Below, one piece after another: positions 5,830-26,500 of a stretch of 64,000 bases of DNA. The translations under genes were made by a program, and so were the position numbers. Each line of letters starts with the position of its first letter. The first letter of the stretch is position 1. The DNA comes from Amycolatopsis mediterranei (GTDB lineage Bacteria > Actinomycetota > Actinomycetes > Mycobacteriales > Pseudonocardiaceae), in NCBI RefSeq assembly GCF_026017845.1, contig NZ_CP100416.1, positions 5,576,887 through 5,640,886 on the forward strand, written 5' to 3'. The notes below the pieces were generated by a model. The model was given only the letters and a program-made list of their open reading frames with translations, had not been told where the DNA came from and made no database searches.

Positions 5830-6014
5830 CTGCAGCTCCGTCTTCTCGGCTCGGTCGATGCCAGCGATGACACCGGCGGCCGCCTTCGAGCCGCCTTCAC
5901 CGCGCCATCACCGGACGGCGGGCCGCCACCGGTCCGGTGAAGGCGCGGCGATACCGGCGGGGAGTCCGCTGTGCAGAGCCAATCCACGCGAACCGGCACG
6001 ACGGAAGGACCTGC
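5830..6014. promoter_or_regulatory. divergent promoter region of the two building-block operons
   Basis: The 185 bases between the starts of the sbnB-like gene (minus) and the glutamate mutase S gene (plus) must hold promoters for both operons. I could not pick out confident -35/-10 pairs by eye. A shared control region would let Dap and 3-methylaspartate supply be switched on together, for example by the SARP regulator near 28-29 kb. Confidence 0.45.
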
Positions 6015-6428: not shown

Positions 6429-6430
6429 CC

Positions 6431-7825
<1,395 letters not shown>

Positions 7826-7827
7826 TC

Positions 7828-8532
7828 ATGCTGGGAGTGCTCGGCGGCATGGGGCCCGCCGCCACCGTCGATTTCCTGGACAAGCTCGTCCGGGCGACCG
7901 AGGCGGAGCGGGACCAGGACCACGTGCCGGTGGTCGTCTGGAACGACCCGAGGGTCCCCGACCGCACCGACGCGCTGTGCCACGGCGGGCCCGACCCGAC
8001 CCCGGCGCTGATCACCGGCGCGAGCGCGTTGCTGGCGATGGGCGCCTCGGTGCTGGTGGCCATCTGCAACACCGCGCACCTGTTCCTGCCCGTGGTCGCC
8101 GCGGTCACCGGGGCGCGCTTCCTCAGCATGGTCGACGCGACGGTGGCCGAGGTGACCGGCCTGCTGCCACCGGGCGTGCCCGTCGGCCTGCTCGCCGGTA
8201 CCGCGGCGGCGCAGAGCGACCTCTACGCCGCACCGTTCGCCGAGGCCGGGCGGCCGTTGCTGGTCCCGGCACCGCCGGACCAGGAAGAAGTGATGGCCGT
8301 GATCCGGGCGGTCAAGGCGGGTGACGTGTCCGAGCGGACCGCCGGCCGCCTGCGCGCCGTCACCACCGAACTCCGCGCGGCCGGAGCGGGCGCGGTGATC
8401 GCCGGCTGCACCGAGCTGCCGATCGTCTTCGCCCTCGACCCGCGGCCCGTGGTGCCGGTGATCGACCCGACCGCGGTGCTCGCCGCCGCCGCCGCACAGC
8501 TGTTCCGCCCGGTCCGCCTCGCCGTCGCCTGA
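7828..8532 (+). CDS. aspartate/glutamate racemase family protein
   Basis: A 234-residue cofactor-independent racemase of the Asp/Glu/hydantoin family. The N-terminal LGGMGPAATV loop is diagnostic, and both catalytic cysteines are present: C80 in ICNTAH and C194 in AGCTELP. It starts two bases after the glutamate mutase E gene behind a GGAGGAG box, so the three genes form one supply operon. It could racemise aspartate, glutamate or 3-methylaspartate. The NRPS already has an epimerization domain after its Asp-type module, so a D-amino acid for another step, such as the ATP-grasp ligase, is possible. The exact substrate is not visible. Confidence 0.88.
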   Translation: MLGVLGGMGPAATVDFLDKLVRATEAERDQDHVPVVVWNDPRVPDRTDALCHGGPDPTPALITGASALLAMGASVLVAICNTAHLFLPVVAAVTGARFLSMVDATVAEVTGLLPPGVPVGLLAGTAAAQSDLYAAPFAEAGRPLLVPAPPDQEEVMAVIRAVKAGDVSERTAGRLRAVTTELRAAGAGAVIAGCTELPIVFALDPRPVVPVIDPTAVLAAAAAQLFRPVRLAVA

Positions 8533-8570: not shown

Positions 8571-11500
8571 ATGTCCACACCCACGATGTCCCCCGCGGTG
8601 CGCGAGGCGCTGAACCGGCGGCTGCGCGCGGCCCACGACCGCGCCACCGACGAGTCCCCGCCGCCCGCTGCCGGTCCGGCCGTCCTCTCCGAGCAGCAGC
8701 GGTGGGTGTGGACGGCCGACCAGCTGGCCGCGGGCACCCCGCTCTACAACATCCCGCGCGCCCTGCACGTCCGCGGCGCCCTCGACCCGGCCGCGGTGAT
8801 CACCGCGCTGCGGGCCGTGCTCGAGCGCCACCACGTGCTGCGGACCGTCTACCGCGACACCGACGGCACCCCGGTGCCGGTCGTGCTGGCCGCCGGCACC
8901 CAGGTCCCGGTGGTCGACCTGACCGGGGTGCCGGAGCCCGCGGAACAGGCGCTGACCTACGCCCGGCAGGAAGCGGCGAGGCCGTTCGACCTCGCGCACG
9001 ACGTCCCGGTCCGGATGTCGCTCGTGCGGTGCGCCGACGACGACTGGTACCTGGTCGCGGTGCTGCACCACATCGCGGTCGACGCGACGTCGCTCGGCGT
9101 GTTCTGGCGGGAGTTCGGCGCGGCTTACCGGGCGGCTCTCGCCCACCGCGCGCCGGAGTTCGCGCCGTTGCCGGGTCAGTACGCCGGCTACGCGGCCTGG
9201 CAACGAGAACTGCTCGCGGGCACCGGCGCGGACGCCGACCTCGCGTACTGGCGCACCCGGCTGGCCGCGCCGACGCCGTTGCAGCTGCCGGCCGACCACC
9301 CGCGGCCCGCGGTGCGCTCCGGCGAAGGCACACGCGTGCCGTTCGCCTTCCCGGCGGCGACCGCGCGGGCGGTGCGCGAATTCTGCGCCACGCACCGCGT
9401 GACGCCCTACGCCGTGCTGATGGCGGCCTTCACCGCCGTGCTCGCGCGGTGGACCGGGCAGGACGACGTGGCGGTGGGCACGCCGATCGCGTTGCGGCCG
9501 CAGGTGCGGTTCGAGCCGCTGATCGGGTTGTTCGTCAACACCTCCGTGCTGCGCCCGGCGCTGGCCGACGACCCGCCGTTCGTGACCCTGCTCGACCGCG
9601 TCCGCGAGGACACCTTCGCGGCCTACGACCACCAGGGCGTGCCGTTCACCCGGCTCGTGCAGGCCCTGCAGCCCGTGCGCGACGCCTCGCGCAACCCGTT
9701 GTTCGACGTGCTGTTCACCGTGCAGGGCGAGTCCGGCACGACGCTGGCCGCACCCGGGCTCACGACCTCGGAGCTCCCGCTCGCGAGCGCCACGGCCAAG
9801 GTCGACCTCGCGCTGACCGTGATCGACGGCGAGACCCTCTCGGGCACCCTCGAGTACGACTCGGCGCTGTTCACCGCGGCCACCGCCCACCGGTTCGCCG
9901 GCAGCTACCTGGCGTTGCTGCTCGACGCCGTCACCGCACCCGGTACGCGGGTCAGCGAGCTGGCCGTGCTCACCGGCCACGACGCCGCCGCGTTGGCCGC
10001 CCGCAACGAAACCACGGTCCGCTACGCGAGCTCCGCGACGATCCCCGAGCTGTTCGCCGTCGTCGCCCGCCGGCAGCCGGCCACCACCGCCGTCCGCTGC
10101 GGCAGCGAGCTGATGTCCTACGGCGAGCTGGACGTCGCGTCCGACGCGATCGCCGCGGTCCTGCGCGAACGCGGAGCCGGCCCCGACGCGCGGGTCGCGC
10201 TCTACGTCGGCCGGACCTGCTCGATGATCGCCGCGATGCTCGGCGTCCTCAAAGCAGGCGCCGCGTACGTGCCCGTGGACCCGCAGTACCCGGCGGCCCG
10301 CATCCGGCACATCCTCGGTGACGCGCGCGCCGCGCTCGTGCTGACCACCACGGACCTGCTGGACCGGCTGGACTTGCCGGCGGGCGTCACCGCGCTGTGC
10401 GTGGACGACCTGCCCGCGAGCGTGCCCGGTCCGCCGGCCGGTCCGAGCCCCGACGACCTGGCGTACGTGATCTACACGTCCGGGTCGACCGGCCGCCCCA
10501 AGGGCGTGATGGTGCCGCACCGGGGCGTGCTGAACCTGTCCGCGTCGATGATCCGCGATCTGGGCATCGGGCCGGGCGACACGGTCGCGGCGCTGGCCTC
10601 CTACGCCTTCGACATGTCGGTCCCGGAGCTGATCACGCCGCTGCTGGCGGGCGCGACGATCGCCGTGGTCCCGCGCGACACCGCCATGGACCCCGAGGCG
10701 CTGGCCGCGCTGATCGCCGAAGCCGGGGTCTCGGTGATGCAGGCGACGCCGACGACGTGGCGGATGCTGCTGGACACCGGGTTCACGGCCCCGCACCTGC
10801 GGGCCGTCGCGGGCGCCGAGGCGGTGCCGCCGGTGCTCGCCGCCGAGCTGGCCGCCAAGGTCGCGCAGCTGTGGAACTACTACGGCCCGACGGAAACCAC
10901 GGTCTGGTCGGTGCGCACGGCGATCGGCGACGCCGCACCCGACCGGCCGCTGCCGATCGGCACGCCGCTGGACAACACCACCGTGCACGTGCTCGACGCG
11001 CGGATGCGACCGGTGCCGCCCGGTGTCGTCGGCGAGATCTTCCTCGGCGGCGACGGCGTCACCCGCGGCTACCACGGCCGGCCCGGCCTGACCGCGCAGC
11101 GGTTCGTCCCCGACCCGGCCGGCTCGGCCGGGCGGCTCTACCGGACCTCGGACCTGGCGCGGTGGCGCGCCGACGGCACGCTCGAGTACCTGGGGCGCGC
11201 GGACTCCCAGGTGAAGGTCCGGGGCCACCGGATCGAACTGTCCGAAGTGGAGACCATCCTCGCCACGCACTCCGACGTCGCCCGTGCGGCGGCCACGGTG
11301 TTCGGCGGCGACGGCGACCGCCGGCTCACCGGGTACGTCGTCTGGCACGGCACCGGCGACCTCGACGCGGTCCGCGAGCACCTGCGGCGCCACCTGCCCG
11401 AGTACATGGTGCCCTCGGCCCTGGTCGAGCTGGAAACGTTGCCCCTCAACGCAAACGGCAAGGTGGACCGCGCCGCGCTGCCCGAGCCGAGCGTCCCGAC

Positions 11501-14500
11501 GGCAGGCGCGGGCTCGGTCGCGCCGCGCACTCCCTTGGAGCACGCGGTGGCCGGTGTCGTCGCCGACGTGCTGGGGCTGCCCTCGATCGGCGTGCACGAC
11601 GACTTCTTCGCCGTCGGCGGCCATTCGCTGCACGCCATCCGTGTCGTGACGCGGCTGCGCGCCCAGTACGGGGTCACGTTGCCGGTCCAGCGGCTGTTCA
11701 CCGGCCCGACCGTGGCCGGGCTGTGTGCCGTCCTGGCCGAAGCCGGGGCGGACGCGAGCGCCGAATCGGTCGGGCTCACCCGCCGTCCGGCCGGCACCGT
11801 GGCCCCGCTTTCGCCGACGCAGCGGCAGATGTGGTTCCTCGACCGGCTCGGGGAACGCGCGGGCGAGCTGAACGTGCACACCGTGCTGCGGCTGACCGGC
11901 GAGCTCGATCTGGCCGCGTTGCAGGCGGCGCTGACCACGGTGGCCGACCGGCACGAGGTGCTGCGCGCCCGGTTCGAGACCCACGACGGCGAGCCGGTGC
12001 AGGTGCCGCAGGCCGGCTGTCCGCGGGTCGAGGTGACGGACCTGACCGCGGTCGCCGAGACCGACCTGCCGGTCAAGGCCGACGCCGCCGTGGCCCAGGA
12101 GATCGCCACCCCGATCGACCTGACCGCGCCGCCGCTGCTGCGGATGCGCGTGGTGCGGTTGCGCCCGGACGAGCAGCTGCTCGTGGTCGTCGTGCACCAC
12201 GCGGCGATGGACGGCTGGTCGTGGACCGTGCTGCGCGAGGAACTGTCCACCGCCTATGCCGCGCATGTGGTCGGCCGGACGCCGGAGCTGCCGGAGCTGG
12301 CGCTGGGCTACGGCGACGTCGCCTACTGGCAGCACCACCGCGACGCCGGCGCCGTGGCGAACGACTTGGAATTCTGGCGGACGCAGCTCGCGGACGCGCC
12401 CAGCGGTGAGCTGGCCACGGACCACCCGAGGCCGCCGGTCCGTTCGGGCCGCGGGGCCGAGGTCCGCTGGGCGTTCCCGGCGGAGCTGACCGCCGCGATC
12501 CGCGCGTACGGCCGCGAGCACGGCACCACGGCGTTCCAGACCCTGCTGGGCGCCTTCCAGTACCTGCTCGCCGAATACACCCACGCCGGGGAGACCATCG
12601 TCGGCACGCCCGTCGCCGGTCGGGCCGACCCCGCCGTCGAGCGGCTCATCGGCTGCTTCATCAACTTCCTGGCCCTGCGGGCCGACGTCACCGGCGACCC
12701 GACGTTCGCCGAGCTGACCGGGCGCGCCCGGGACGGCCTGCTGGCCGCGCTCGACCACCAGGGCGTGCCGTTCGGGGACCTGGTCGCGCAGCTGCGCCCG
12801 GAGCGCGACGCCTCGCGCAACCCGTTCTTCCAGGTCCTGTTCACCATGGACGACGACTCGGTCGGGCACCTGGAGTTCGCGGGCACGACCGCCGAGCAGC
12901 TGCACCCGGCCGCGACGACCGCGAAGTTCGACCTGGTCGCGTCGCTGCTGGACCGGGGCACGCGGATCCACGGCTCGTTCGTCTACGCCACGGACTTGTT
13001 CGAGCACCGCACGGTCGAGCGGTTCGCGGCCGCGTTCCAGGCGCTGGTCGAGCAGGCGGTCGCCGCGCCGGACATCCCGCTCTCGCGGCTCACCCCGAGC
13101 ACGCCGGAGGAACTCCCCGCCGCGACGCCGGACGCCGCGGTGGCGCCGGTGCACGAGCAGGTCGCGGCGCAGGCCGCCGCCACCCCGGACGCGATCGCCG
13201 TGCGGTTCGGCGAAGAGCGGCTGAGCTACGCGGAGCTCGACGCCCGCGCCAACCGGCTGGCCCACTGGCTGCTCGGCCGCGGGGTGCGGGCCGACGAACC
13301 GGTCGGCATCGCCCAGCACCGCGGCCCGGCACTGGTCGTCTCGCTGCTGGGCGTGCTGAAGGCGGGCGGCGGCTACGTCGCCGTCGACCCGGCGCACCCG
13401 GCCGCGCACAACGCGGAAGTGTTGCGCCACTGCGGTTCCCGGCTCGTCCTGGCCGGCGCCGACCTGGCCGGGCCACTTGCGCAGCACACGCCGGCGGAAA
13501 GCTCGGTCGTGGACGTCGGCGCCGTGGACCTCGCGGCGCACCCGGCCACCGACCCGGGCGTCGGGGCCGACCTCGACCGGCTCGCCGCGATCTTCTACAC
13601 CTCCGGTTCCACCGGCACACCGAAGGGCATCGCGACCACGCACCGCGGGCCGGCGAACTACCTGCGGTACCTGCGGGCGGTCACCGCCCTGTCCGGGCAG
13701 GACATCGTGCCGCAGATCGCCGGCACCCGGTTCGACGCGTCCGTGCGCGAGATCTTCGGCACGCTCGGCCAGGGCGCGCAGCTGGTCGTGCTCACCGACG
13801 AGCAGGCCAAGGACCCGTACGCGATCACCCGGATCGTCACCGAACACCGGGTGACCGCGCTGATGAGCCTCGTGCCGTCCATGGTGTCCGCGCTGGCCAT
13901 CGGCGCGGGTGAACCGGGCTACGACGGGACGAGCCTGCGGCTGGCGATGGTCGGCGGCGAGGTGCTCGGGGCCCAGCACGTGCGCGACGCGGCCAAAATC
14001 GGACCGCGGATGCGGCTGGTCAACCACTACGGCCCGACCGAGTGCACGATGACCTCGACCTACCACACGCTCGAGGGCCGCGACGGGATCGACGGCGCGG
14101 CCCCGATCGGCCGGCCGATCCCCGGCGCCCGCGGGTACGTGCTCGGCCGCGAGGGCAGGCCGGTGCCGGCCGGCGCGGTCGGCGAGCTGTACCTGGCCAC
14201 CCCCGGGCTCGCCCGCGGGTACGCCGGCGCCGCCGGGGCGACCGCCGCGCGGTTCGTGCCCGATCCGTGGGGACCGGCCGGCGGGCGGATGTACCGGACC
14301 GGCGACCTCGTGCGCTGGGCCCCGGACGGCCGGCTGCGCTTCCACGGCCGGGTGGACCAGCAGCTCAAGCTGCGGGGCATCCGGATCGAGCCGGGCGAGA
14401 TCGAAGCCGCGATCACCGCGCTGCCCGGGGTCCGGGCCGCGGCGGTGGTGCCCCGCGGGGAGGCGCTGCAGCGGGAGCTGGTCGCGTTCCTGGTGCTCGA

Positions 14501-15743
14501 CACCGACGTCACCGACGTCGCGGCCATCGCCGCCCGGATGACCGCGCAGCTGCCGAGCCACCTCGTGCCGTCCCGCTTCGCCACGCTGGCGGAGCTGCCC
14601 CTGACCCCGACCGGCAAGGTCGACCGGCGGGCGCTGCTGGCCACCCCGGTCGACGATCTCGCCGCGCTCGGCGGGGAGGTCGTGGCGCCCCGCGACGCGG
14701 TGGAGCTGCGCATGGCGGGTGTCTGGGAGCGGTTGCTCGAACGCGGCCCGATCGGCGTGCACGACGACTTCTTCGCCGTCGGCGGGCACTCCCTCAAAGC
14801 GGTGCAGCTGGTCGACGCCATCAAGCAGGAGTTCGACGTGGTGCTGCCGCTGAACACGGTGTTCACCAGGCCCACGGTGGAAGGGCTCTGCACGGCGCTC
14901 GACGACGTCCCGGCCGGGCTGGTGGTGCCGCTGGCCCGCAGGGGCGGCACGGGCACGCCGTTGTTCCTGATCCACCCGCAGGGCGGCGACGTCTGCTGCT
15001 ACGCGGCGATGGCCCGGGAACTCGCCGACGACCGCGACGTCTACGGCATCGAGGCGGTCGGGCTGAACACCGACGAGCCACCGCTGGACCGGCTGGAGGA
15101 CATGGTCGAGCGGTACCTCGTCGAGCTGCGGCAGGTGCAGCCCCACGGGCCCTACGCACTGGCCGGCTGGTCCTACGGCGGCAACGTCGCCTACGCCATG
15201 GCGTTGCGGCTGGAGGCCGAGGGCGAGGAGATCGAGTTCCTCGGCCCGATCGACGCCCGCGTGTTCGGGCGCGACGGCGTCGAGCAGTGGTACCGGGACA
15301 AGTCCGACGCGGAACGGTTCCGCATCGGCGCCGAACTCGGCGCGGACGGCGTCGCCGACCTCGACGAGCAGGACTTCTTCGACGTGCTGTTGCGCGACGC
15401 GCACGCCAAGGGCCGGCTCGCGCCGCGCGCCGGCTCGGCCACGGTGCGCCGCATGATGCGGGTGTTCACCGCCAACGGCTACGCCGCGGAGAAGTACGCC
15501 AACACCGCCCGGGTGCGTGCCGACGTGCACCTGTTCCGGGCCCGGGACAAGCACCCGGCGCTGCCCAACCCGAAGGTCGACCCGCAGGGCTGGCAGGAGC
15601 GCACCGACGGGCGGCTGCACGTCGTCGAGCTCGCCGGCAACCACCACGACGTGGTCTACCCGCCGCGGGCCGCGGAGACCGCCCGTCACCTCAAGGCCGC
15701 GCTGAGCGCGGCCGCCGAATCTCGAGAAGGGAACCGGGTATGA
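8571..15743 (+). CDS. NRPS, C-A-T-C-A-T-TE (termination protein)
   Basis: A 2390-residue two-module NRPS with release domain. C1 about 38-480 (HHIAVDA, so the final Gly of HHxxxDG is Ala); A1 about 485-985 ([10 protein letters not shown] near 635, NGKVDR near 961); T1 Ser near 1016; C2 about 1080-1510 (HHAAMDGWS near 1209); A2 about 1520-2020 (TSGSTGTPKG near 1674); T2 Ser near 2071; TE about 2120-2385 with the GWSYGG nucleophile near 2198. By-eye pockets are D-M-P-Q-V-G-Y-V-W for A1 and D-A-R-S-M-G-H-M-T for A2; I cannot assign either confidently. It begins with a C domain, so it must receive a peptide from another protein. The stop overlaps the LanB-like gene (ATGA). Confidence 0.95.
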   Translation: MSTPTMSPAVREALNRRLRAAHDRATDESPPPAAGPAVLSEQQRWVWTADQLAAGTPLYNIPRALHVRGALDPAAVITALRAVLERHHVLRTVYRDTDGTPVPVVLAAGTQVPVVDLTGVPEPAEQALTYARQEAARPFDLAHDVPVRMSLVRCADDDWYLVAVLHHIAVDATSLGVFWREFGAAYRAALAHRAPEFAPLPGQYAGYAAWQRELLAGTGADADLAYWRTRLAAPTPLQLPADHPRPAVRSGEGTRVPFAFPAATARAVREFCATHRVTPYAVLMAAFTAVLARWTGQDDVAVGTPIALRPQVRFEPLIGLFVNTSVLRPALADDPPFVTLLDRVREDTFAAYDHQGVPFTRLVQALQPVRDASRNPLFDVLFTVQGESGTTLAAPGLTTSELPLASATAKVDLALTVIDGETLSGTLEYDSALFTAATAHRFAGSYLALLLDAVTAPGTRVSELAVLTGHDAAALAARNETTVRYASSATIPELFAVVARRQPATTAVRCGSELMSYGELDVASDAIAAVLRERGAGPDARVALYVGRTCSMIAAMLGVLKAGAAYVPVDPQYPAARIRHILGDARAALVLTTTDLLDRLDLPAGVTALCVDDLPASVPGPPAGPSPDDLAYVIYTSGSTGRPKGVMVPHRGVLNLSASMIRDLGIGPGDTVAALASYAFDMSVPELITPLLAGATIAVVPRDTAMDPEALAALIAEAGVSVMQATPTTWRMLLDTGFTAPHLRAVAGAEAVPPVLAAELAAKVAQLWNYYGPTETTVWSVRTAIGDAAPDRPLPIGTPLDNTTVHVLDARMRPVPPGVVGEIFLGGDGVTRGYHGRPGLTAQRFVPDPAGSAGRLYRTSDLARWRADGTLEYLGRADSQVKVRGHRIELSEVETILATHSDVARAAATVFGGDGDRRLTGYVVWHGTGDLDAVREHLRRHLPEYMVPSALVELETLPLNANGKVDRAALPEPSVPTAGAGSVAPRTPLEHAVAGVVADVLGLPSIGVHDDFFAVGGHSLHAIRVVTRLRAQYGVTLPVQRLFTGPTVAGLCAVLAEAGADASAESVGLTRRPAGTVAPLSPTQRQMWFLDRLGERAGELNVHTVLRLTGELDLAALQAALTTVADRHEVLRARFETHDGEPVQVPQAGCPRVEVTDLTAVAETDLPVKADAAVAQEIATPIDLTAPPLLRMRVVRLRPDEQLLVVVVHHAAMDGWSWTVLREELSTAYAAHVVGRTPELPELALGYGDVAYWQHHRDAGAVANDLEFWRTQLADAPSGELATDHPRPPVRSGRGAEVRWAFPAELTAAIRAYGREHGTTAFQTLLGAFQYLLAEYTHAGETIVGTPVAGRADPAVERLIGCFINFLALRADVTGDPTFAELTGRARDGLLAALDHQGVPFGDLVAQLRPERDASRNPFFQVLFTMDDDSVGHLEFAGTTAEQLHPAATTAKFDLVASLLDRGTRIHGSFVYATDLFEHRTVERFAAAFQALVEQAVAAPDIPLSRLTPSTPEELPAATPDAAVAPVHEQVAAQAAATPDAIAVRFGEERLSYAELDARANRLAHWLLGRGVRADEPVGIAQHRGPALVVSLLGVLKAGGGYVAVDPAHPAAHNAEVLRHCGSRLVLAGADLAGPLAQHTPAESSVVDVGAVDLAAHPATDPGVGADLDRLAAIFYTSGSTGTPKGIATTHRGPANYLRYLRAVTALSGQDIVPQIAGTRFDASVREIFGTLGQGAQLVVLTDEQAKDPYAITRIVTEHRVTALMSLVPSMVSALAIGAGEPGYDGTSLRLAMVGGEVLGAQHVRDAAKIGPRMRLVNHYGPTECTMTSTYHTLEGRDGIDGAAPIGRPIPGARGYVLGREGRPVPAGAVGELYLATPGLARGYAGAAGATAARFVPDPWGPAGGRMYRTGDLVRWAPDGRLRFHGRVDQQLKLRGIRIEPGEIEAAITALPGVRAAAVVPRGEALQRELVAFLVLDTDVTDVAAIAARMTAQLPSHLVPSRFATLAELPLTPTGKVDRRALLATPVDDLAALGGEVVAPRDAVELRMAGVWERLLERGPIGVHDDFFAVGGHSLKAVQLVDAIKQEFDVVLPLNTVFTRPTVEGLCTALDDVPAGLVVPLARRGGTGTPLFLIHPQGGDVCCYAAMARELADDRDVYGIEAVGLNTDEPPLDRLEDMVERYLVELRQVQPHGPYALAGWSYGGNVAYAMALRLEAEGEEIEFLGPIDARVFGRDGVEQWYRDKSDAERFRIGAELGADGVADLDEQDFFDVLLRDAHAKGRLAPRAGSATVRRMMRVFTANGYAAEKYANTARVRADVHLFRARDKHPALPNPKVDPQGWQERTDGRLHVVELAGNHHDVVYPPRAAETARHLKAALSAAAESREGNRV

Positions 15744-18001
15744 GCGCATGGAGCATGTCCTCGTGGGCCATGTTGCGTCGAGCGGGCTTCCCGTTCGACC
15801 TCCTCGCCCCGCTGCGCGACGACGAGTTCGCCGAGGAACTGCGCACGGCGGCCGCGGGCGGTGACTGGGCCGCGCTGCCCGACCGGTTCGACGACGTGCT
15901 GCGCGCGTCGGTCGGCGAGCTGGTCCGGGCCGGGCGCGACGAACGTGCCCTCGAGGCCGTCTACCTGTCCAGTCCGGAGGCCTACCAGCGGTTGCGGGAC
16001 TGGGTGCACGAAGACGTGCCCGCGACGCTCAACCACCGGGTGAAGCGGCGGGTGCAGCTGCTGACCATGTACCTGCAGCGGCTGTGCACGAAGAACGAGA
16101 CCTCGAGCTTCTTCGGGCCGCTGGCCTGGGTCCGCACCGGCACCCCGGACGAGCCGTTCGCCTTCGCCGGGCCGGGCGAGCTGCGCAACCGGGTGTTCTG
16201 GAGCAACTGGTCGGTGCAGCAGCTGGCCCGGCTGGTGTCGGCGGACCCTCAGGTGTGGCCCGCGCTGACGCCGAGACCGGCGACGCAGACGTTCCTCACC
16301 GACGGCGGCGCGCGGCGGGTCGACTTCGCCGGGCACCCGCCGCTGGTCGAGCCGGTGGCCGAACTGACCGGGCCGCCGCTGCGCGAGCTCTTCGCGCTGT
16401 GCGACGGGAAACGGACCATCGCCGACGTTGCCGCCGCGTCGGGCACCGATCCGGAGCGCCTGGCCGCGCAGCTCACCGAGCTGGTGGACTGCGCGGCGCT
16501 CGAAGTGGACATCACGATCCCCTCCGGGGCGCCCGAACCGTTCGCGTTCCTGCGGGAGCGCGTCGCCGCGCTGCCCGCCGCGCCGCGCGAGCGGTGGCTC
16601 ACCGAGCTGGACCGGCTGGACGCGCTGCGGCAGCGGGTGCAGGACGCCCGCGGCCTCCCGGCGCGGATCGCCGCGGTGGAAGCGCTGAACGAGGGCTACG
16701 CCGGGACCGGGGCCGGTGCTACCGCGCGGGACGGCGGCCAGATCGCCTCCGACCGCACGCTCTGGTACGAGGACTGCCGGCAGGACTGGGGGGCGGCGAC
16801 GTTGGCCGGTCCCGCCGCGGCCAGCCTGCGGGAGGAGTTCCCGCAGCTGCTGGAGCTGCTCTTCCAGCTGCCGCTGGCCCGGTTGCGGGCCCGGCGCGCG
16901 GAATGCCACCGGTGGTTCACCGAAACGTTCGGGGCCGGGTCGGTGGTCACCGTCGACCAGGCTCTCGCCGCGGCCGCCGACACGGACCTCTCGACCCGGT
17001 TGCAGGTGCTCGACGACAAGCAGCGCGCCGAGTACCCGGCGCCGCTGTCGGCCGTCCTGCACGCCAACCGGCACCGGTCCGAAGTGGTCCTGCCGCTGTC
17101 GTGGGTGCACGAGCACCTCGGCGACGCGCCGTTCGACGCCTGGGCGCTGTGCAGCGCGGACCTGCACCTGTCGGCCGCGGACGACGACGCCGTGCGGGCG
17201 GGCGAATTCACCTGGGTGCTGGGCGAGGTGCACGCCCTCCACGAGGTCCTCGCGAGCACGTTCGCCCTGCTGCACCCCGACCCCGGCTCGCTCGCCGAGG
17301 ACTGCGCGGCGCACCGCGAGGCGTTGAGCGACACGGTCATCTGCGAACCCCTCAAGGCCCACCGCGGCAAGATGTCCGTGCGGGTGCCCTTCGGCAGCCC
17401 GCAGATCGAGTTCTCCGCGCGCTCGGCCCAGCCCGAGCGGCTTCGGCTCACCCCGGACGAGCTGACCATCCGGGACCGGGGCCATCGCCTCGCGCTGCAC
17501 GGCGACCGGCACGGCGAGGTGGAGCTGGTGGTGGCGCCGCAGCAGTGGCTCGCCGACGAAACCGGGTCGCTGTTCGGGTGCTTCACCGGGGTGCGCGCCT
17601 ACCGGATGACCGACTTCCTCGGCGGCCCGGCGGCCGATCACCTGCCGCGGTTGCGGGTCGGGCGCTTCGTGCTCGCCCGGGAAACCTGGTGGATCGAGCC
17701 GGAGCCGGCCAAGCGCAAGATCTTCCAGTTCGACAACCAGCGCTTGGCCTGGCGGATCAAGCACGACCACGGCCTGCCCGACCAGGTGTTCGTGAGCTTC
17801 GAAGAGGAGCCGAAGCCGATCTTCGTCGACTTCCGCAACCCGTTGCTGGTGGAGATCTTCGTCAAGGGCGTGCAGTCCAGCACGCAGCCGTTCCGGGTCA
17901 CCGAGATGCTGCCCGGTGCCGGTGCCATGTGGCTGGACCACGGTCTGGGCGCGCACACCAACGAGTTCCGCATCGGCTTCTACCGGAAGGCGGACGAATG
18001 A
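15740..18001 (+). CDS. short LanB-like protein (lantibiotic dehydratase N-domain family)
   Basis: A 753-residue protein related to the glutamylation half of class I lantibiotic dehydratases, which use glutamyl-tRNA to esterify Ser/Thr; short relatives (PEARLs) instead add amino acids from aminoacyl-tRNA to a peptide C-terminus. The N-terminal RRAGFPFDLLAPL is typical. At residues 118-127, KNETSSFFGP replaces the RxTPFG-type segment of classical LanB, suggesting a distinct clade. No separate SpaB_C elimination domain is apparent, and there is no LanC, LanT or clear core peptide nearby. The ATG at 15740 overlaps the NRPS stop, and the gene overlaps the exporter gene downstream, so it is made with the assembly line. 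Acting on the NRPS product or carrier-bound peptide is my inference. Confidence 0.8.
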   Translation: MSAWSMSSWAMLRRAGFPFDLLAPLRDDEFAEELRTAAAGGDWAALPDRFDDVLRASVGELVRAGRDERALEAVYLSSPEAYQRLRDWVHEDVPATLNHRVKRRVQLLTMYLQRLCTKNETSSFFGPLAWVRTGTPDEPFAFAGPGELRNRVFWSNWSVQQLARLVSADPQVWPALTPRPATQTFLTDGGARRVDFAGHPPLVEPVAELTGPPLRELFALCDGKRTIADVAAASGTDPERLAAQLTELVDCAALEVDITIPSGAPEPFAFLRERVAALPAAPRERWLTELDRLDALRQRVQDARGLPARIAAVEALNEGYAGTGAGATARDGGQIASDRTLWYEDCRQDWGAATLAGPAAASLREEFPQLLELLFQLPLARLRARRAECHRWFTETFGAGSVVTVDQALAAAADTDLSTRLQVLDDKQRAEYPAPLSAVLHANRHRSEVVLPLSWVHEHLGDAPFDAWALCSADLHLSAADDDAVRAGEFTWVLGEVHALHEVLASTFALLHPDPGSLAEDCAAHREALSDTVICEPLKAHRGKMSVRVPFGSPQIEFSARSAQPERLRLTPDELTIRDRGHRLALHGDRHGEVELVVAPQQWLADETGSLFGCFTGVRAYRMTDFLGGPAADHLPRLRVGRFVLARETWWIEPEPAKRKIFQFDNQRLAWRIKHDHGLPDQVFVSFEEEPKPIFVDFRNPLLVEIFVKGVQSSTQPFRVTEMLPGAGAMWLDHGLGAHTNEFRIGFYRKADE

Positions 18002-19260
18002 GCCGGATGAACCGCGACCTGCTGACCCTCTCCACCGCGCAGACCTTCTCGGCTGTCGGCTCGCAGGTCACGATCGTGGCGCTGCCGCTCTCGGCGGTGC
18101 TGATGCTCGACGCGACCCCGGCGGAGATGGGCTTGCTCGCCGCGCTCGCGGTGCTGCCGTACCCGGTGCTCGCCCTGTGGGTCGGCGCGTGGGTGGACCG
18201 GTTGCGGCGACGGCGGATCCTGATCATCGCCGACTGGTGCCGCGCCGTGCTGCTCGGGTCGGTGCCGGTGGCCGCGCTGTTCGGGGTGCTGGGCATGACG
18301 CAGCTCTACCTGGTGGCCTGCCTGGCGGGGTGCGCGAGCGTGTGGTTCGACGTGGCCTACACCTCCTACATCCCGCAGGTGATCCCGAAGGAGCAGATCG
18401 TCGGTGCGAACTCGGCGGTGACGGTGGCGCGCTCCGGCGCCCAGGTCGCGGGTCCCGGCCTCGGCGGCGTCACCGTGCAGGCGTTCACCGCGCCGATCGC
18501 GATCGCGATCGACGCCGTGTCGTTCGTGGTCTCGGCGGTGCTGTTGTCCCGCATCAAGGACGACCCGCCCTGCGAGCCCGGGCCGAAGCGGCGGATCCTC
18601 GCCGACGTCGTCGAGGGCACGCGGTACCTGCTGCGCACGCCGGTGCTGGCCATGCCCGCGTTCGCGATGAGCCTGGTCAACCTGTTCAACTTCGTGCTGC
18701 TGGCGGTCTTCGCGCTCTACGTGGTCGAGGTCCTGCACATCGGCGCGGCCCTCTACGGCACCATCCTGCTGCTGGGCGGGCTCGGTGCGGTGGTCGGCGG
18801 CGTGTTCGCCGGCACCGTCGCCAAGCGGCTCGGCACCGGCCGCGCGGTCATCGTGGGCACGGCGTTGTTCGGCCTGGCCCCGGTTCTGGTCGCTTCGGCG
18901 GGCGGCGACGTGCTCGCCGTGGTGCTGATGCTCGTGGCCGCGCAGTTCCTCACCACCCTGGGCCTGTCGGTGCTGGACGTCAACCTGGTGAGCCTGCGCC
19001 AGACCACCACGCCGGTGCGCATCCAAGGCCGGGTCGGCGCCACGATCCGGATGGTCAACTGGTCGATGAAGCCGCTGGGCGCGGTGCTCGGTGGTGTGCT
19101 CGGCGAGCAGATCGGGCTGCGGCCCACGATCTGGGTCGCGGTCGCCGGCGGTGCCGCGGGTGCCCTCTGGATGCTCCTGTCCCCCATCCGTCGCGTCCGC
19201 ACCGATCGCGACGTCACCACCGAACCCATCCCCGATCCTGTTCCGGAGGCCGTGTCATGA
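17998..19260 (+). CDS. MFS transporter, probable product exporter
   Basis: A 420-residue polytopic protein of the major facilitator superfamily, MFS_3/enterobactin-exporter-like type. It shows repeated hydrophobic segments (about 10-12), a WVDRLRRRR loop between helices 2 and 3, and a charged loop near the middle (KDDPPCEPGPKRR). It overlaps the LanB-like gene by ATGA at its start and the ATP-grasp gene by ATGA at its end. Placed inside the biosynthetic operon, it most likely exports the peptide and may give self-resistance. No other transporter is present in the cluster. Confidence 0.88.
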   Translation: MSRMNRDLLTLSTAQTFSAVGSQVTIVALPLSAVLMLDATPAEMGLLAALAVLPYPVLALWVGAWVDRLRRRRILIIADWCRAVLLGSVPVAALFGVLGMTQLYLVACLAGCASVWFDVAYTSYIPQVIPKEQIVGANSAVTVARSGAQVAGPGLGGVTVQAFTAPIAIAIDAVSFVVSAVLLSRIKDDPPCEPGPKRRILADVVEGTRYLLRTPVLAMPAFAMSLVNLFNFVLLAVFALYVVEVLHIGAALYGTILLLGGLGAVVGGVFAGTVAKRLGTGRAVIVGTALFGLAPVLVASAGGDVLAVVLMLVAAQFLTTLGLSVLDVNLVSLRQTTTPVRIQGRVGATIRMVNWSMKPLGAVLGGVLGEQIGLRPTIWVAVAGGAAGALWMLLSPIRRVRTDRDVTTEPIPDPVPEAVS

Positions 19261-20465
19261 GCGTGCTCGTCATCAACAGCCACCCCTACGGCGAACTGTT
19301 CTTCCAGGGTGCGTGCCGGGTGCCGGTGGCGCCGGCCGAGCGGCAGCTCGTGTCCACGGAGTACAACGGCGCGCTCGGCGGCCACGACCCGGCCGACTTC
19401 CCGCACGTGGCCGCCTGCACGGACATCTACGACGAGGAGCACGTGCGCAAGGCGGTCTACGAACTGGCCGCCACCACCCGGCCGGACCGGATCGTGACCA
19501 TCAGCGAGCAGCTGATGGTGGTGGCCGCCGAGCTGCGCGAGGAGCTGGGCCTGCCGGGCCAGGACGTGGACTCGGCGCTGCGGTTCCGGGACAAGGTCGT
19601 GATGAAACGCGCGCTGCGCGACGCCGGCTGCCCGGGCGTGCCCCGGTTCGTCGAGGTGGACCGGGATCTCACCGAGCTGCCGTGGGCGACGGAGCGGTAC
19701 GTGGTGAAGTCCCGGATGGGCATGGGGTCCACCACCGTGCGGATCGTGTCCACAGTGGACGAGGTGAACGCGGCCCGCCGGGAGCTGCTCGCGCTGGACC
19801 CCAGCGGGGTCGAGGTCGAGGAGTTCGTCGCCGGCGTGATGTACCACTGCGACGGCGTCGTCGAGAACGGCGAGGCGGTGTTCGGGTCGGTTTCGCGCTA
19901 CCTCACCCAGCCCGGCGACTTCCGCTCGTCGGGCGTCCAGGGCAGCGTCACCCTGCAGGACTGCGAGCTCAGCAGGCGCATCGGCGAGTACCACGCCGAG
20001 GTCGTGCGGCACCTGGGCCTCGGCGAAGGCGTCACGCACCTGGAGGTGTTCCACACCGCCGACGACCGGATCGTCTTCTGCGAGATCGCGGCGCGGCCGG
20101 GTGGCGGGGGCATCGCCTACATCGTCCGGCAGGCGCACGGCGTCGACCTGATCTCGGCGGCGCTGCGTGCGCAGTCGGGGGTGGAGCCGTTGACGCCGGC
20201 GCCGTCGGACGGCCTGGGCCGGGTCTGGGGGCTGGTCGGGTTCTACTCGCGGCCGGACGCGGTCGCGGTGCCCTTCGACGCCGGGTCGCTGCCGCCGGAG
20301 CTGGGCGTGCACCTGTGCTTCGGCAGCAGGCGGGCGGGTCAGGTGGACAACTCCACCGACTTCGTGCACAAGTTCTTCCTGTCCGCGGCCGACGACGCGG
20401 AGTTCGAGCAGCGGTACGCTGCCCTGCGCGAGCTCGTCGCGGAGCGGGGCTGGGAGCCGGCGTGA
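19257..20465 (+). CDS. ATP-grasp carboxylate-amine ligase
   Basis: A 402-residue ATP-grasp enzyme. These activate a carboxylate as acyl phosphate and join it to an amine. A pre-ATP-grasp domain (about 1-105) is followed by RFRDKVVMKRAL near 114, a YVVKSRMGMGS nucleotide-loop region near 145-155, and a metal-binding segment with VFCEIAARPGGGG near 275-285, where E and N/A positions should hold Mg-ATP. It resembles stand-alone amino acid or peptide ligases of dipeptide-antibiotic pathways (BacD/DdaF type) more than primary biotin or purine enzymes. It is the last gene of the coupled operon NRPS - LanB-like - MFS - ligase. Substrates are unknown; joining an amino acid (perhaps Dap or a D-acid) to the peptide fits the context. 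Confidence 0.85.
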   Translation: MSVLVINSHPYGELFFQGACRVPVAPAERQLVSTEYNGALGGHDPADFPHVAACTDIYDEEHVRKAVYELAATTRPDRIVTISEQLMVVAAELREELGLPGQDVDSALRFRDKVVMKRALRDAGCPGVPRFVEVDRDLTELPWATERYVVKSRMGMGSTTVRIVSTVDEVNAARRELLALDPSGVEVEEFVAGVMYHCDGVVENGEAVFGSVSRYLTQPGDFRSSGVQGSVTLQDCELSRRIGEYHAEVVRHLGLGEGVTHLEVFHTADDRIVFCEIAARPGGGGIAYIVRQAHGVDLISAALRAQSGVEPLTPAPSDGLGRVWGLVGFYSRPDAVAVPFDAGSLPPELGVHLCFGSRRAGQVDNSTDFVHKFFLSAADDAEFEQRYAALRELVAERGWEPA

Positions 20466-20473
20466 GGCGAAAA

Positions 20474-20510
20474 CGGTGCCGCCCGCCGGGAGTCCCGGCG
20501 GGCGGCACCG
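20474..20510. terminator. strong bidirectional rho-independent-type hairpin
   Basis: Perfect 17-bp inverted repeat: left arm 20474-20490, 3-base loop AGT, right arm 20494-20510, almost all G/C. It lies in the 58-base gap between the convergent ATP-grasp gene (stop 20465) and the minus-strand NRPS (stop 20524), so it can end both transcripts. No long U-tract follows, which is usual in actinomycetes. Confidence 0.85.
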
Positions 20511-20523
20511 TCGTCGCGGGTGG

Positions 20524-23500
20524 TCAGGCCCGGCACAACCGCGCGAACGCGCGGACCGTGTCCTCGGCCAGGTCGCGGGCGAACGCCGGATCGCAGTCGG
20601 CCTGCTCGTAGAGCACCTGCACCCGGATCGGGTCGGCGTCGATCACGCCGAGGACGATCGGGTAGCCGGTGCGCTCGAACTCCCGCACGGCGGTCAGCGA
20701 CGCCTGCGGGCCCGCGATGACCGGCCGCGGGAAGTTCTCCACCACGAGGATGGTGTCGAACAACTGCTCGCCGGCCGGCACCGCGGTCAGCCGGTGGATG
20801 TCCGTGAGCGCGCTCGCCACGTGTTCCCGCAGCTCGGCGTGGCGCTCTTGCAGGTCGGCCAGCCAGGCGCGGGTGTCCGGCGCCGGAGCCAGGCGGACCC
20901 GGACCGGGAGCGTGGTGATCAGCGGCCCGACCATCCGGCCGACGTCGGCCAGTTCGCCGGGCCGGATCGCCACGGTGGCACCGAACACGACGTCGTCCCG
21001 GCCGGTGCGCTCGGCCAGCACGCTCGCCCACGCGCCCTGCGCCAGGGTCGCCAGCGTCAGGCCGGCCCGGGCGAGGAACCCGCGCACCGACTCGTGCAAC
21101 GCCGGTGACAGGTCCACGTCGACGGTGGCCGAGCTGGTGCCCGGCACCTGCGGCGGCTTGACCGGCAGCGGGGTCGCCTCGGTGAGGTCGCCCAAGGTCT
21201 GCCGCCAGTAGCCGCGCGTCTGCTCGGCGTCCGAGCGCGCGAGCCAGGCCACGAACTGCCCGAACGGCGGCGCGGGGGCCGGGCGGGCGGTGCTGCCCTC
21301 CAGCAGTGCCTGGTAGACCTCCATCACCTCGGAGACCACAGTGGACACGCTCCACCCGTCGACGATGATGTGGTGGTAGCTCAGCACCACGCGCACACTG
21401 TCGCCCTCGGGCCGCAGCGCGACCTCGATCGGCGGCGCCGCCGCGAGGTCGAACCCGCCGGTGCGCACCACGTCGGTCACCCGGATGCCGGCGTCGGCCC
21501 ACACGGCCTGGACCGGCTCCTGCAGCCCGTCCCAGACGATCGTGCTGCGCAGGATCGGGTGCCGGCGGCCGACCTCGCGCCAGGCTTGGGCGAACGCGCC
21601 GAGGTCGATCCGCCCGTCGAGGCGGTAGGTCCGCCGGCCGAGGTACATGTCGTCGTCGGGGTCGAGCAGGCTGTGGAACAGCAGTCCTTCCTGCATCGCG
21701 GTGAGCGGGTGGACGTCCTCGAGCGCCGAGCCGCCCGGGCCGCTCGCCGCCAGGTGGTCCACCTCGCGCTGGGTGAGCCGGGTCAGCGGGAAGTCCGACG
21801 GCGTGTGCCCGCCCGGGTTGGCGACGCAGTACGCGGTCAGCTCCCGCAGGTGGGCGAGGAACGCCTCGGCGAGGGTCCGCACGGTGTCCGCGCGCAGCCG
21901 GGTGGCCGGGTAGATCCACTCGACGTGCAGGACGCCGTCGCGGACGCCGGCCTCGATCTCGATCGGCCGGGGCCGCGGGTAGGCCGCGCTCTTCTCGGCA
22001 CCCAGCGGCGTCGCCGCCACGGTGAACGGGCCGGCATCGGGGATCGAGCGATCCACCCGGCCGTGGTAGTTGACCACGACCGGCGAGACCGGGCCGGTGC
22101 TGCCCACGGCGGGCAGGCCGCGCAGCACCTCCTTGACGTGGTGCAGTTCGGGCTCGTCGAACCGCACGGGCAGCACCTGGGTGAACCAGCCGACGGTGCG
22201 GGAGAGGTCGAGGTCCTCGGCGGCGCCGTCGCGGCCGTGGCGTTCGACGTCGAGCACCGCCGGGCCGCCGGACCACTGCGCCAGCGTCTTCGCCGCGGCG
22301 GTGACGACGAGGTCCTCGGCCCGGACGCGGTGCACCCGCGGCACGTCCCGCAGCAGCCGCTCGGTGTCCTCTTCGGACAGCCGCACGTGCACCGACGCCG
22401 CCGTGGCGACGGTGTCGGGCCCGTGGTCGTGGTCCACCGGCAACGCCGGGACCGCCCCGGGCCCGGCGGCGGCCACGTCGAGGGTGTCCAGTGCGGCGAT
22501 CCAGTCCTGGTAGGACGACGTCGGTGCGGCGAACGGCGTGCCTTCGTAGGCCGCGGCCAGGTCTTCGATCAGCGAACGCCACGACAAGGTGTCCACGACG
22601 AGGTGGTGCACCGCGAGCAGCAGCCGGTCCGGCCCGTCGCCGGTGCGGAACAGCCCGGCCCGCACCACCGGTCCGGCGACGATGTCCAATGAGGACTGGA
22701 CCGCGTCGGCCGCGGCGGTGAGCGCGCCGGCGTCCGCGCTCGCGAAGTCCCGGCACCACAGCAGGTCCGCGTCCTCGCGGTCCACCACCCGCTGCCGGAG
22801 CGCCCCGAGGTCGAACCGGGTGCGCAACGCCGGGCTGTGCGCCACCAGGGCCCGCAGCGCGGCCGCCATCCGGCCGGGGTCGGCGTCGTCGAGGGTGAGC
22901 ACGACCGACTGGTTGTAGTGGTGGTGGTCCGGCAGGTCCCGCTCGGCGAACGCCCGCTGGATCGGCGCGAGCGGGAACCACTCGCCGGTCTTCGCCGCGG
23001 CCCGGTGCGGGGTCGCGGTGGTGATCGGGGTGGCCTGCGGGGCCAGCTGCGCGACGGTCGGGTACCGGAAGATCAGCTTCGGGCTGATCCGCAGGCCCGC
23101 CTGCCTGGCCCCCGCGACGACCTGCAGCGTCATGATGGAGTCGCCGCCGAGCTCGAAGAAGTTGTCGTGCACGCCGACGCGCTCCACCCGCAGCACGTGC
23201 GCCCAGCATTCGGCGAGCATCCGCTCGGTGTCGCCGCGCGGGGCCGCGTACTCCCGTTGCACCGCGCGGTCGATCGCTTCCGGCACCGGCAGCGCCGTGC
23301 GGTCGACCTTGCCGTTGGCGGTCAGCGGCAGCTCGTCGAGCACCAGGTAGGTGGCCGGCACCAGGTACGGCGGGAGCCGGTCACCGAGCCAGGACCGCAG
23401 CTCGGCCGGGGCCGGGGCGTGGGCGGCGGCCACGACGTAGGCGATCAGGCGCTGCCGGCCGGTGTCGTCGGCCGGCGCGGTCACCACCACCCCGCGCAGG

Positions 23501-26500
23501 TCCGGGTGCCCGGACAGGGCGCGCTCGATCTCGCCGAGTTCGACCCGGTAGCCGCGGATCTTGACCTGCCCGTCGCGCCGGCCGAGGAACAGGAGGTCCC
23601 CGCCCGGCAGCCGGACCGCGCGGTCGCCGGTGCGGTACATCCGGGCGCCGGGCACCGGCCGGAAGGGGTCGGGCACGAACTTCCCGGCGGTCAGGCCCGG
23701 CCGGTCGAGGTAACCGCGGGCGTTGCCGACGCCACCGACGCAGATTTCGCCGGGCACCCCGACCGGCACCGGCCGCAGCCGCTCGTCGAGCAGGTAGGTG
23801 CTCTGGTTCCGGTGCGGGCGGCCGATGGGCACGAGCGTGGTCCCGGCGGGCTCGGCTCCGGTGCGGAACGACGAGCAGCCGACCGACACCTCGGTGGGGC
23901 CGTAGTGGTTGACGATCGCCGTGTCCGGCGCGAGGCGGTGCCAGCGTGCCCGCACCCGGTCGGGGAACGCTTCGCCACCGACCAGCAGCACCCGCGCGAG
24001 GCGGGCCGCGCGTTCCGGGGACAGGTGTTCGGCGAGCAGCTCCAGCAATCCGGGCGTGAGCTTGACGAAGCTGTACGGCGCGCCCTCGGCGAGCTGGTCC
24101 GCGAGTTCGCCGGCGTCGAGCCCGTCGGGCAGCAGCCGCACCGGCTGCCCGGCGAGCAGCGGCGCGTACAGCGACGGCACGATGAGGTCGAAGCCGTAGG
24201 AGGAGAAGACCGGCGCGCCGCCGCGCGCGTCTTCCGGCAGCTGCGCGAGGCACCACCGCAGGTGGTTGACCACCCCGCGGTGGGTGACCGCGACGCCCTT
24301 GGGCTTGCCCGTCGACCCGGACGTGTAGATCACGTACGCCAGGTTGTCCGGAGTGGACAGTGGCACCGGATCGCGGTCGTCGGTGCCGCTGCCGGGGGCG
24401 ATCAGCTCGGCGCCGGACCCGGCGACCAGCTCGCGCAGGTCGTCGTCGACGATCAGGTAGCGCAGGCCGGCGTCGGCGATGATGGTGGCGAGCCGCTCGG
24501 CGGGGTTGTCCGGGGCGAGCGGCAGGTACGCTCCGCCGGCCTTGAGCACGGCCAGCAACGACACCAGCAGCTCCGGCGTGCGGTGTGCGCAGACGCCGAT
24601 CAGCGTCTCGGGACCGGCCCCGCGCTCGCGCAGGTGGTGGGCCAGCCGGTTGGCGCGGGTGTTCAGCTCGGCGAAGGTCAGCTCGTGGTCGCGCCCGCGG
24701 ACCGCGACGGCGCCGGGCACCCGGTGCGCCGTGGCCTCGACGAGCCCGTGGATCGTGGCCCCGGCGACGGGTTCGGGTACCTGCGCCCCGAAGACCGGCC
24801 AGGAAGCGGACTCCTCGGCGGTGATCAGCTCGACGTCGCCGAGCCGGCGGCCCGGATCGGCGGCGAACGCGGCCAGTGCCGCGTCGAGGTGCCCGGCGAT
24901 GCGCCGCACCGCGGCCTCGTCGAAGCGGGACCGCTGGTAGCGCAGCAGCAGCTCGATTCGCTCGCCGTGCTCCTCGACCAGCAGCACCAGCGGGTAGCCG
25001 GTCTTGGTGACGGTGTCGTGCGAGCTGATCGACAGCCCGGTCGCCGGGTCGTGCGCCTGCGGGGCGGGCTGGTTCTGCCCGATCACGATCGTGTCGAACA
25101 GCGCCTGGCCGGCGGGCACGCCGCTCCAGGCCCGGATGTCGGGCAGCGAGCAGTGCTGGTAGTCCTGCAGCTGAAGCAGGTTCCACTGCACCTCGCGCAG
25201 CCACTGCGCCAGCTCTGCGCCGGGCGGCACCGGCAGCCGCACCGGCAGCGTGGTGATGAACAGGCCGACGGTGGTGTCGACCTCGGCCAGTTCCGGCGGG
25301 CGGCCGGAGAACGTCGAGCCGAACACGACGTCCTGCCGCTCGCCGTAGCGTGCCAGCAGCAGTCCCCACAGGCCGTGCACCACCGAGTTCAGGGTCAGGC
25401 CCTCGGCGCGGGCCCGGTCACGCAGGGCGAGGGCCCGCGCCCCGGCGAGGCGCACCGGAATCTCGCCGACGCCGCCGGGCGCGTCGTCGTGCCCGGCGTT
25501 CCCGGGCAGCGGTGACGGACCCGCAGACCCGCGCAACCGGTCGCGCCAGAAACTCGCGGCCCGCTCCCGGTCCTGCCGGTCGATCCAGTCGACGTAGCGG
25601 CGGAACGCCGGCCCCGCGGTGACTTCCGCGGGCTCGCCCAGGGCGTGCTCGCGGTAGCGCTGCACCAGTTCCCGCACGACCAGCGCCATGCTCCAGCCGT
25701 CGAGGACGAGGTGGTGGTGGCTGAGCACGACCGCCCAGTCCCGCTCGCCGAGGCACACTGCGGTCAGCCGCAGCGGTGGCGCCGCGGCCGGGTCGAAGCC
25801 CACCTGCCGGTCCTCGGCGACCACGCGGTCGAGGTCGGCCGCCTCGACCACCGTGACCGACGTGCGCACGGCGTGCTCGACGACCTGCACCGGCCGGTCG
25901 AGCCCGGCCCAGGCGACCCGCGAGCGCAGCGCCGGGTGGCGGCCCGCCACGTCCCGCCAGGCGGCGGCGAACACGCCGGGGTCGAACGGGCCGCTCACCC
26001 GCAGCACGGACTGCTGGAAGTAGTCGGTGGCGTCGTCGTTGTACTGGCTGTGGAACAGCATCCCCGCCTGCAGCGGGGTGAGCGGGTAGACGTCGGCCAC
26101 GTCGTCGAGGGCCGCGATGGCGGCCACGGCGCCGGCGTCGCGACCGGGCGCGGCCACGGCCGCACCGGAGTCGTCCGGCGCGGTCACCGCTTCGGCGAGT
26201 CCGGCGACCGCGCGGATCGTGCGGTGGCGCAGGATGTGCTCGGCGGTGATCCGCAGGCCGGCGGCGCGCGCCCGGGCGACCAGGGTGAGGGCGACGATGG
26301 AGTCGCCGCCGAGGTCGAGGAAGTCGTCGTCGGGTCCGGCGCCGGCCAGCACGCCGCGCCAGATCTCGACCAGGGTGCGTTCGACGTCCGTGCTCGCCGC
26401 GGTGTCCGGTGCGGCGACCCGGTCGTCGGGCGCGGGCAGCTGCTTGCGGTCGATTTTCCCGTTGAGGCTCAACGGGATCTCCTCGATCGTCAGGCAGCGC

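Follow-up and report, generated by a model that had tools for sequence, protein, structure and literature searches.

LanB-like proteins acting as peptide aminoacyl-tRNA ligases (PEARLs) have been linked in print to nonribosomal peptide synthetases (NRPSs) since 2024, when SnaE was described together with about 2000 NRPS or polyketide synthase (PKS) clusters holding such genes (PMC11212132). SnaE is required for the addition of Thr in threopeptin, and it is proposed to extend a chain that starts with a bare carboxylate owing to a ureido-forming condensation (C) domain; this first NRPS-linked PEARL was explained by the chain reversal, which places the carboxylate out of reach of the NRPS (PMC11212132). 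Fusions of such proteins to thioesterase (TE) or thiolation (T) domains are already described in the same paper. Here we analyze a LanB-like gene of Amycolatopsis mediterranei that lies in a stretch of 64,000 nt (contig NZ_CP100416.1, positions 5,576,887 to 5,640,886), called the window below; the genome is one contig of 10.6 Mb. The analysis indicates that the 753-residue product is probably a ligase of the PEARL type that has been drawn into an NRPS pathway, where it would extend the carboxylate freed by the TE with a residue from an aminoacyl-tRNA, an amide formed by an ATP-grasp ligase then following. An earlier note on this DNA had regarded such a pathway as unrecognized, a view that the 2024 paper overtakes.

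The gene is embedded in a tightly coupled set. ATGA overlaps at 15740, 17998, and 19257 join an NRPS gene (NRPS1), the LanB-like gene, a major facilitator superfamily (MFS) gene, and an ATP-grasp gene, as the earlier note had described, and all three overlaps are kept in Amycolatopsis sp. CA-126428 and Actinokineospora diospyrosa. Both are collinear with the window over the 22 kb compared, at a DNA identity of 96% and ~82%, respectively, the LanB-like protein itself being 99% identical in CA-126428. Between the window and the Actinokineospora copies, the LanB-like gene has a dN/dS of 0.21, below the 0.28–0.38 of its three neighbors and thus the lowest value among these four genes, which argues for a constrained protein rather than a chance reading frame. 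A profile search of 390 genomes of the family gives full-strength orthologues in only three (G000, G118, and G756), so the cluster is rare; it is compact, and its conservation spans two genera. Between 5937 and the convergent NRPS gene at 20524, the gaps that separate the genes are at most 58 nt, which leaves no room for a precursor gene between them; a precursor inside the LanB operon is thus ruled out for the intergenic gaps of this interval. ARAGORN finds no tRNA gene in the window. The cluster is not named in the literature searched with a few terms, and the genome paper of CA-126428 (PMC5859366), the strain with the orthologous cluster, may list it under another name.

PF04738 covers residues 67–706 of the LanB-like protein, in which no other Pfam family matches at 0.001. 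At the same threshold, the whole genome contains a single PF04738 match, which is this gene, and no match to the elimination domain PF14028; the earlier note had reported none nearby, and the statement thus extends to the genome. It had likewise seen no LanC in the vicinity, and the only LanC-like match of the genome is indeed ~88 kb away. That domain belongs to a 1049-residue frame (G000:C1:5503612-5504676), possibly a class III/IV lanthipeptide synthetase. A phmmer search of the PDB with the single LanB-like protein returns nothing at 0.01, and the best match of a 12-row profile of its clade is PDB 6ec7 (3.5e-24), which we take to be TbtB.

The protein was compared with three sets of loci. 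The near set comprises 20 of the 28 non-orthologous near loci (those omitted are in G083, G090, G168, G133, G303, G232, G175, and G256; an adenylation (A) domain is present in 3 of these 8, which are 5-kb loci). The lanthipeptide control consists of 20 of the 30 best-scoring PF04738 loci, two of which end at ~14 kb at contig ends. The "mid" set consists of 20 loci picked by a weaker PF04738 score, not at random; seven of them gave no LanB row longer than 450 residues, and 14 rows were usable. Eleven of these 14 form one tree group with a KTSPFS-like motif that resembles KTSPYS of PDB 6ec7, and are labeled TbtB-like below. The segment KNETSSFFGP at residues 118–127 of the window protein takes the form K[NAS][ED][TS]xxxFGP in all 27 near rows, the 20 lanthipeptide rows having RxTP, which upholds the suggestion that this segment marks a separate LanB clade.

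The catalytic residues point in the same direction. In the RiPP (ribosomally synthesized and post-translationally modified peptide) enzyme BhaBC-Trp, the key residues are Arg34, Tyr205, Arg208, Asp558, Glu575, and the Glu813-x-Arg815 pair; Tyr205 and Arg208 are assigned to binding of the tRNA CCA end and Asp558, Glu575, and Glu813-x-Arg815 to ATP and phosphorylation, and several of them have been probed by mutation in BhaBC-Trp or TglB (PMC11962472). By published number and spacing, their equivalents in the window protein are R13 for Arg34, Y111 and R114 for Tyr205 and Arg208 (with the same spacing of 3), D474 and E496 for Asp558 and Glu575, and E742-x-R744 for the C-terminal pair. Over 41 PEARL-like rows, the window included, R114, D474, E742, and R744 are invariant, column 496 is always acidic (38 Glu, 3 Asp), and R13 and Y111 are each present in 40. 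R13, Y111, and R114 are also found in all 20 lanthipeptide rows and hence do not discriminate. The E-x-R pair near the C-terminus does, as it is found in 27/27 near rows, 0/11 TbtB-like rows, and 0/20 lanthipeptide rows, and R744 in particular is a firm difference in sequence from the lanthipeptide LanBs. The acid at 496 largely discriminates as well, being absent from the exact column in all 20 lanthipeptide rows and present within three residues in 6 of them. By these residues, the LanB-like protein looks like a PEARL, i.e., an ATP- and aminoacyl-tRNA-dependent amide ligase, and not like a dehydratase.

The linkage to NRPSs is not confined to the window. With the window domains as phmmer queries (>25 bits), an A domain is found within ~10 kb in 18 of the 20 near loci versus none of the 20 lanthipeptide loci (Fisher 3e-9); since weak A calls (L077 and L083) may be other adenylating enzymes, C or epimerization (E) domains provide the stricter count, 15/20 versus 0/20. 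The "mid" set gives 5/20 for A and 2/20 for C/E. The elimination domain, searched with one lanthipeptide domain as the query, which may miss divergent partners, is seen in all lanthipeptide control loci and in none of the near or "mid" loci, and a PF14028 search of the near-locus genomes returned no match within 40 kb of the LanB used. In two loci the association extends to a single open frame, C-A-T-LanB in L071 and TE-LanB in L080. The proposal that a LanB relative of the aminoacyl-tRNA type is tied to NRPSs is therefore supported. Single frames with A, T, and LanB (plus a C motif) and further C-A-T modules downstream are seen in L071, L072, L075, and L081, the C-A-T-LanB architecture being confirmed by Pfam in L071 only.

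In a quick maximum-likelihood tree (SH-like approximate likelihood ratio support only; the 503-residue frame of L085 was left out), the window and A. diospyrosa proteins pair beside L148 (support 100) within a set of nine rows (support 95), which stands apart from the 27-row clade holding most of the NRPS links. L148 lies in a C-A-T-C-A-T-TE cluster. Its TE is the best non-orthologous match of the window TE among the fetched loci (244 bits, next 65), and the same holds for the A domain of module 5 (358 bits, next 303); the front modules differ, the likeness being greatest at the TE and module 5. The LanB gene of L148 is followed by an SbnB-like match (374 bits) and a weaker SbnA-like one (128 bits). 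SbnB-like genes recur near LanB-like genes in NRPS-linked loci, namely L076, L078, L079, and L148 (228–401 bits), with a weak match of 30 bits in L074.

The A-domain codes of the window, extracted with a script using anchors, are DVWHVSLVDK, DLPKLGHVGK, DDVQLSTIDK, DMPQVGYVWK, and DARSMGHMTK, of which the first two, both in NRPS2, are presumably Ser-like and Asp-like. One of the three condensation stretches of NRPS2 is read as an E domain by a motif that we assume to be diagnostic. The collinear order NRPS2, stand-alone A-T protein, NRPS1 is the only one that pairs every C domain with a partner, and the assembly line would yield a pentapeptide; diaminopropionate as the substrate of module 5 is a guess. 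The C motifs of the window are, in addition to the two in Table 1, of the SHHHLVLDG type, VHHLVVDT, and YHHIIVDG. The ureido motif EHHxxHDG is not in any C domain of the window, and we reject chain reversal of the ureido type for this reason. Its exact form is also missing from the 20 near loci, C or E domains being present in 15 of them; L083 has one near-miss, EHHGVHDA, in a frame antisense to an A-like match. The cluster genes that were scanned have neither a ketosynthase motif nor a PKS domain. As for the ATP-grasp protein, residues 50–332 match the "L-amino acid ligase" of PDB 4wd3 at 5e-19, such ligases being its closest PDB matches, while relatives on plasmids with 31–33% identity carry the annotation NikS protein; it has no NCBIfam equivalog over its cut-off.

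What we infer of the substrate, the order of the steps, the amino acid added, and the product is the following. NRPS2, the A-T protein, and NRPS1 would make a pentapeptide beginning with Ser-D-(methyl)Asp, and the terminal TE would release it in linear form. The LanB-like enzyme would then use ATP to phosphorylate a free carboxylate, and the activated carboxylate would be condensed with the amino group of an aminoacyl-tRNA, adding one residue that no NRPS module loads. The carboxylate would most likely be that of the C-terminus left by the TE; an Asp-type side chain is the less likely site. A further amide, perhaps with diaminopropionate or another amine, would be formed by the ATP-grasp ligase, and the MFS protein would export the product. 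The free carboxylates expected are indeed the C-terminus, from TE hydrolysis, and the Asp-type side chains. The N-terminus would be an amine, which a PEARL would be unable to extend, because the ureido motif is absent and NRPS2 opens with a plain A domain. We favor the C-terminal site because the LanB-like gene is coupled to the TE-bearing gene, because of the TE-LanB and C-A-T-LanB frames of L080 and L071, and because the TE is shared with L148.

Table 1. Features of the cluster, with coordinates in the window (position 1 is its first nucleotide)
Feature	Coordinates	Strand	Basis
NRPS1, C-A-T-C-A-T-TE (modules 4 and 5), overlapping the LanB-like gene by ATGA	8571..15743	+	Pfam domains; C motifs LHHIAVDA, VHHAAMDG
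LanB-like protein of PEARL type, 753 aa, predicted ATP-/aminoacyl-tRNA-dependent amide ligase	15740..18001	+	PF04738 5e-35; residues R13, Y111, R114, D474, E496, E742, R744
MFS exporter (predicted), ATGA overlap with the LanB-like gene	17998..19260	+	PF07690/PF05977
ATP-grasp ligase, 402 aa, L-amino-acid ligase/NikS kind	19257..20465	+	PF18130, PF13535; PDB 4wd3; NikS-annotated relatives
Hairpin, 25-nt arms, between convergent units; probable end of the LanB operon	20467..20517	.	RNA fold z -6.3
NRPS2, A-T-C-A-T-E-C (modules 1 and 2, plus C for module 3)	20524..27993	-	Pfam: 2 A, 2 T, 3 condensation stretches
Stand-alone A-T protein, likely module 3, start probably near 3705	1927..3834	-	Pfam; code DDVQLSTIDK
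MbtH-like protein	1695..1898	-	PF03621 1e-21
SbnA-type enzyme for 2,3-diaminopropionate	3750..4748	-	TIGR03945 over cut-off
SbnB-type enzyme for 2,3-diaminopropionate	4783..5829	-	TIGR03944 over cut-off
Methylaspartate (glutamate) mutase small subunit, B12-binding	5937..6428	+	NF002612 9e-27, below cut-off; PF02310
Methylaspartate mutase E chain	6422..7825	+	PF06368 5.5e-104
Asp/Glu-type racemase	7828..8532	+	PF01177; TIGR00035 amino acid racemase and NF052483 "cysteate racemase", both over cut-off
Two SARP/BTAD-type regulators	27942-29075, 29519-32743	-	PF03704 in both

A number of observations weigh against the PEARL assignment and the C-terminal extension. The residues were paired with those of BhaBC-Trp by published number and spacing only, and the correspondence is incomplete, as Gln201 of BhaBC-Trp is unmatched (L107 at that place), the column of Arg197 (R103) is variable within the clade, and no counterpart of Arg429 was located. 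D474 and E742 were absent from the exact columns in all 20 lanthipeptide rows in a first count, but an acid lies within three residues of 474 in 20/20 and a Glu within three residues of 742 in 19/20, so these two alone are not firmly discriminating, their exact-column absence being dependent on the alignment. Structure prediction for the window protein with two orthologues gave a mean pLDDT (predicted local distance difference test) of 33 and a pTM (predicted template modeling score) of 0.22, too low to be of use, and the tRNA pocket was judged from the alignment only. A TE that cyclizes the chain could leave no C-terminus to extend. In L148, an Ldh_2-type dehydrogenase and an Asp/Arg-hydroxylase-like gene stand between TE and LanB, and no relative of the window ATP-grasp protein was found there. 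The window also lacks the EHHxxHDG C domain that goes with SnaE. Finally, in the 30–45 kb around each of L146, L070, L127, L144, and L150, NRPS domains of the C and T kinds are absent and A matches reach 27 bits at most; neighbors are a dehydrogenase, a thiamine diphosphate enzyme, and an MFS protein in L146, a Trp-dioxygenase-like protein and an FAD hydroxylase in L144, and TauD in L150. The recurrent NRPS linkage expected by the earlier note thus stands for the wider clade, but the window's own branch is mixed, with TE-bearing NRPSs in the window orthologues and L148 and none in these five loci; NRPS use in this branch has either arisen more than once or been lost several times.

Some of the loci without NRPS domains have gene sets of interest in themselves. 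L070 (G077:C12:122000-141999, 6928-19079) contains two LanB-like genes, an S-adenosylhomocysteine hydrolase, a radical SAM/B12 enzyme, a PHP-domain protein, and two ABC exporters; it has no NRPS match, and none of the short open reading frames listed makes a convincing precursor. In L127 (G579:C18:11100-31099, 8686-13932), genes for a LanB-like protein, an MFS protein, and an ATP-grasp enzyme of the PGM1 type (PF18604, PF18105) follow one another as they do in the window. The 45 kb covered there contain no NRPS match, and the locus is possibly a minimal set of PEARL plus ATP-grasp. L152 (G796:C31:48000-67999, 2230-19100), in which no NRPS domain was seen, is an array of five LanB-like genes accompanied by an MFS gene and two genes for peptidases of the TldD/PmbA type, and looks like a multi-PEARL pathway.

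We have also considered alternative roles for the LanB-like protein. It might act on the carrier-bound chain, placing the tRNA-derived residue on the side-chain carboxylate of the (methyl)Asp before release by the TE. T-bound substrates are indeed suggested by the C-A-T-LanB frame of L071, the code of module 2 is Asp-like, and a methylaspartate mutase is encoded; however, the Asp-type residue is loaded by NRPS2, whereas the LanB-like gene is coupled to the TE-bearing NRPS1, and the likeness to L148 is greatest at the TE and module 5, with different front modules. We therefore consider this course unlikely. A role upstream of the assembly line, in which the LanB-like and ATP-grasp enzymes act on a free amino acid or a small acid building block, would account for the five related loci without NRPS, among them L127 with its identical gene order, but it fits poorly with the tight coupling to the TE-bearing NRPS that is kept across two genera and with the appearance of a TE-NRPS cluster again in L148; we regard it as quite unlikely.

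The remaining alternative is a glutamyl-tRNA-dependent dehydration of Ser, in the manner of lanthipeptides, on the nonribosomal chain. The PF04738 match and the Ser-like first module are compatible with it, but there is no PF14028 in the genome, and the protein has the E-x-R pair that is found in none of the lanthipeptide and TbtB-like rows, which makes such a reaction very improbable. We reject canonical dehydration for the missing PF14028, and the glutamylation of Ser put forward in the earlier note is not supported, on the same two grounds. The reading that we prefer thus remains the extension by a PEARL of the carboxylate freed by the TE, followed by the ATP-grasp step.

The biochemistry as such is not new, its class being known since 2024; what is new here is the distinct branch, the TE-linked setting without a ureido linkage, and the pairing with an ATP-grasp ligase; the genes for diaminopropionate and 3-methylaspartate are other features that differ from the published NRPS-PEARL. 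As the ureido motif is in no C domain of the window and its exact form was seen in none of the 20 near loci, the extension of nonribosomal peptides from aminoacyl-tRNA probably does not depend on chain reversal. We tentatively go one step further, to a view that has somewhat less in its favor than against it, namely that a second NRPS-PEARL lineage was recruited separately and acts after or with a terminal TE on an ordinary C-terminus, in a relay of three machineries (NRPS, aminoacyl-tRNA ligase, and ATP-grasp) that would install residues beyond the reach of A-domain prediction. A product predicted from the A domains alone would miss such residues.

In comparison with known systems, the window protein shares PF04738 and R13, Y111, and R114 with the class I lanthipeptide LanBs, for which we take NisB and MibB as examples, and differs from them in the absence of PF14028 from the genome, in the E-x-R near the C-terminus, and in having KNETSSFFGP in place of RxTP. 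The split glutamylation enzymes of the TbtB type (PDB 6ec7) give the best PDB match of the clade profile, but the 11 TbtB-like rows, unlike the window, have neither the Arg of E-x-R nor the acid at 496. The ATP-grasp protein resembles the L-amino-acid ligases and NikS (PDB 4wd3) in sequence over the ATP-grasp fold. With the RiPP PEARLs TglB, BhaB, and AmmB (PMC11962472, PMC12945691), the LanB-like protein shares the predicted residues for the tRNA CCA end and for ATP and phosphorylation; those enzymes extend ribosomal carrier peptides, whereas the transcription unit of the window leaves no intergenic room for a carrier gene. SnaE, compared here by its published description, is also similar, as both are stand-alone LanB-like proteins without an elimination domain in an actinobacterial NRPS cluster without a known precursor peptide, and both are proposed to form an amide on a nonribosomal substrate with ATP and aminoacyl-tRNA. 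In the sna cluster, the NRPS is organized as A-T-C(urea)-A-T and is joined by a PKS module and a thioesterase of its own, and the reversed ureido end is extended (PMC11212132), whereas the NRPS of the window terminates in a TE and an ATP-grasp ligase accompanies it.

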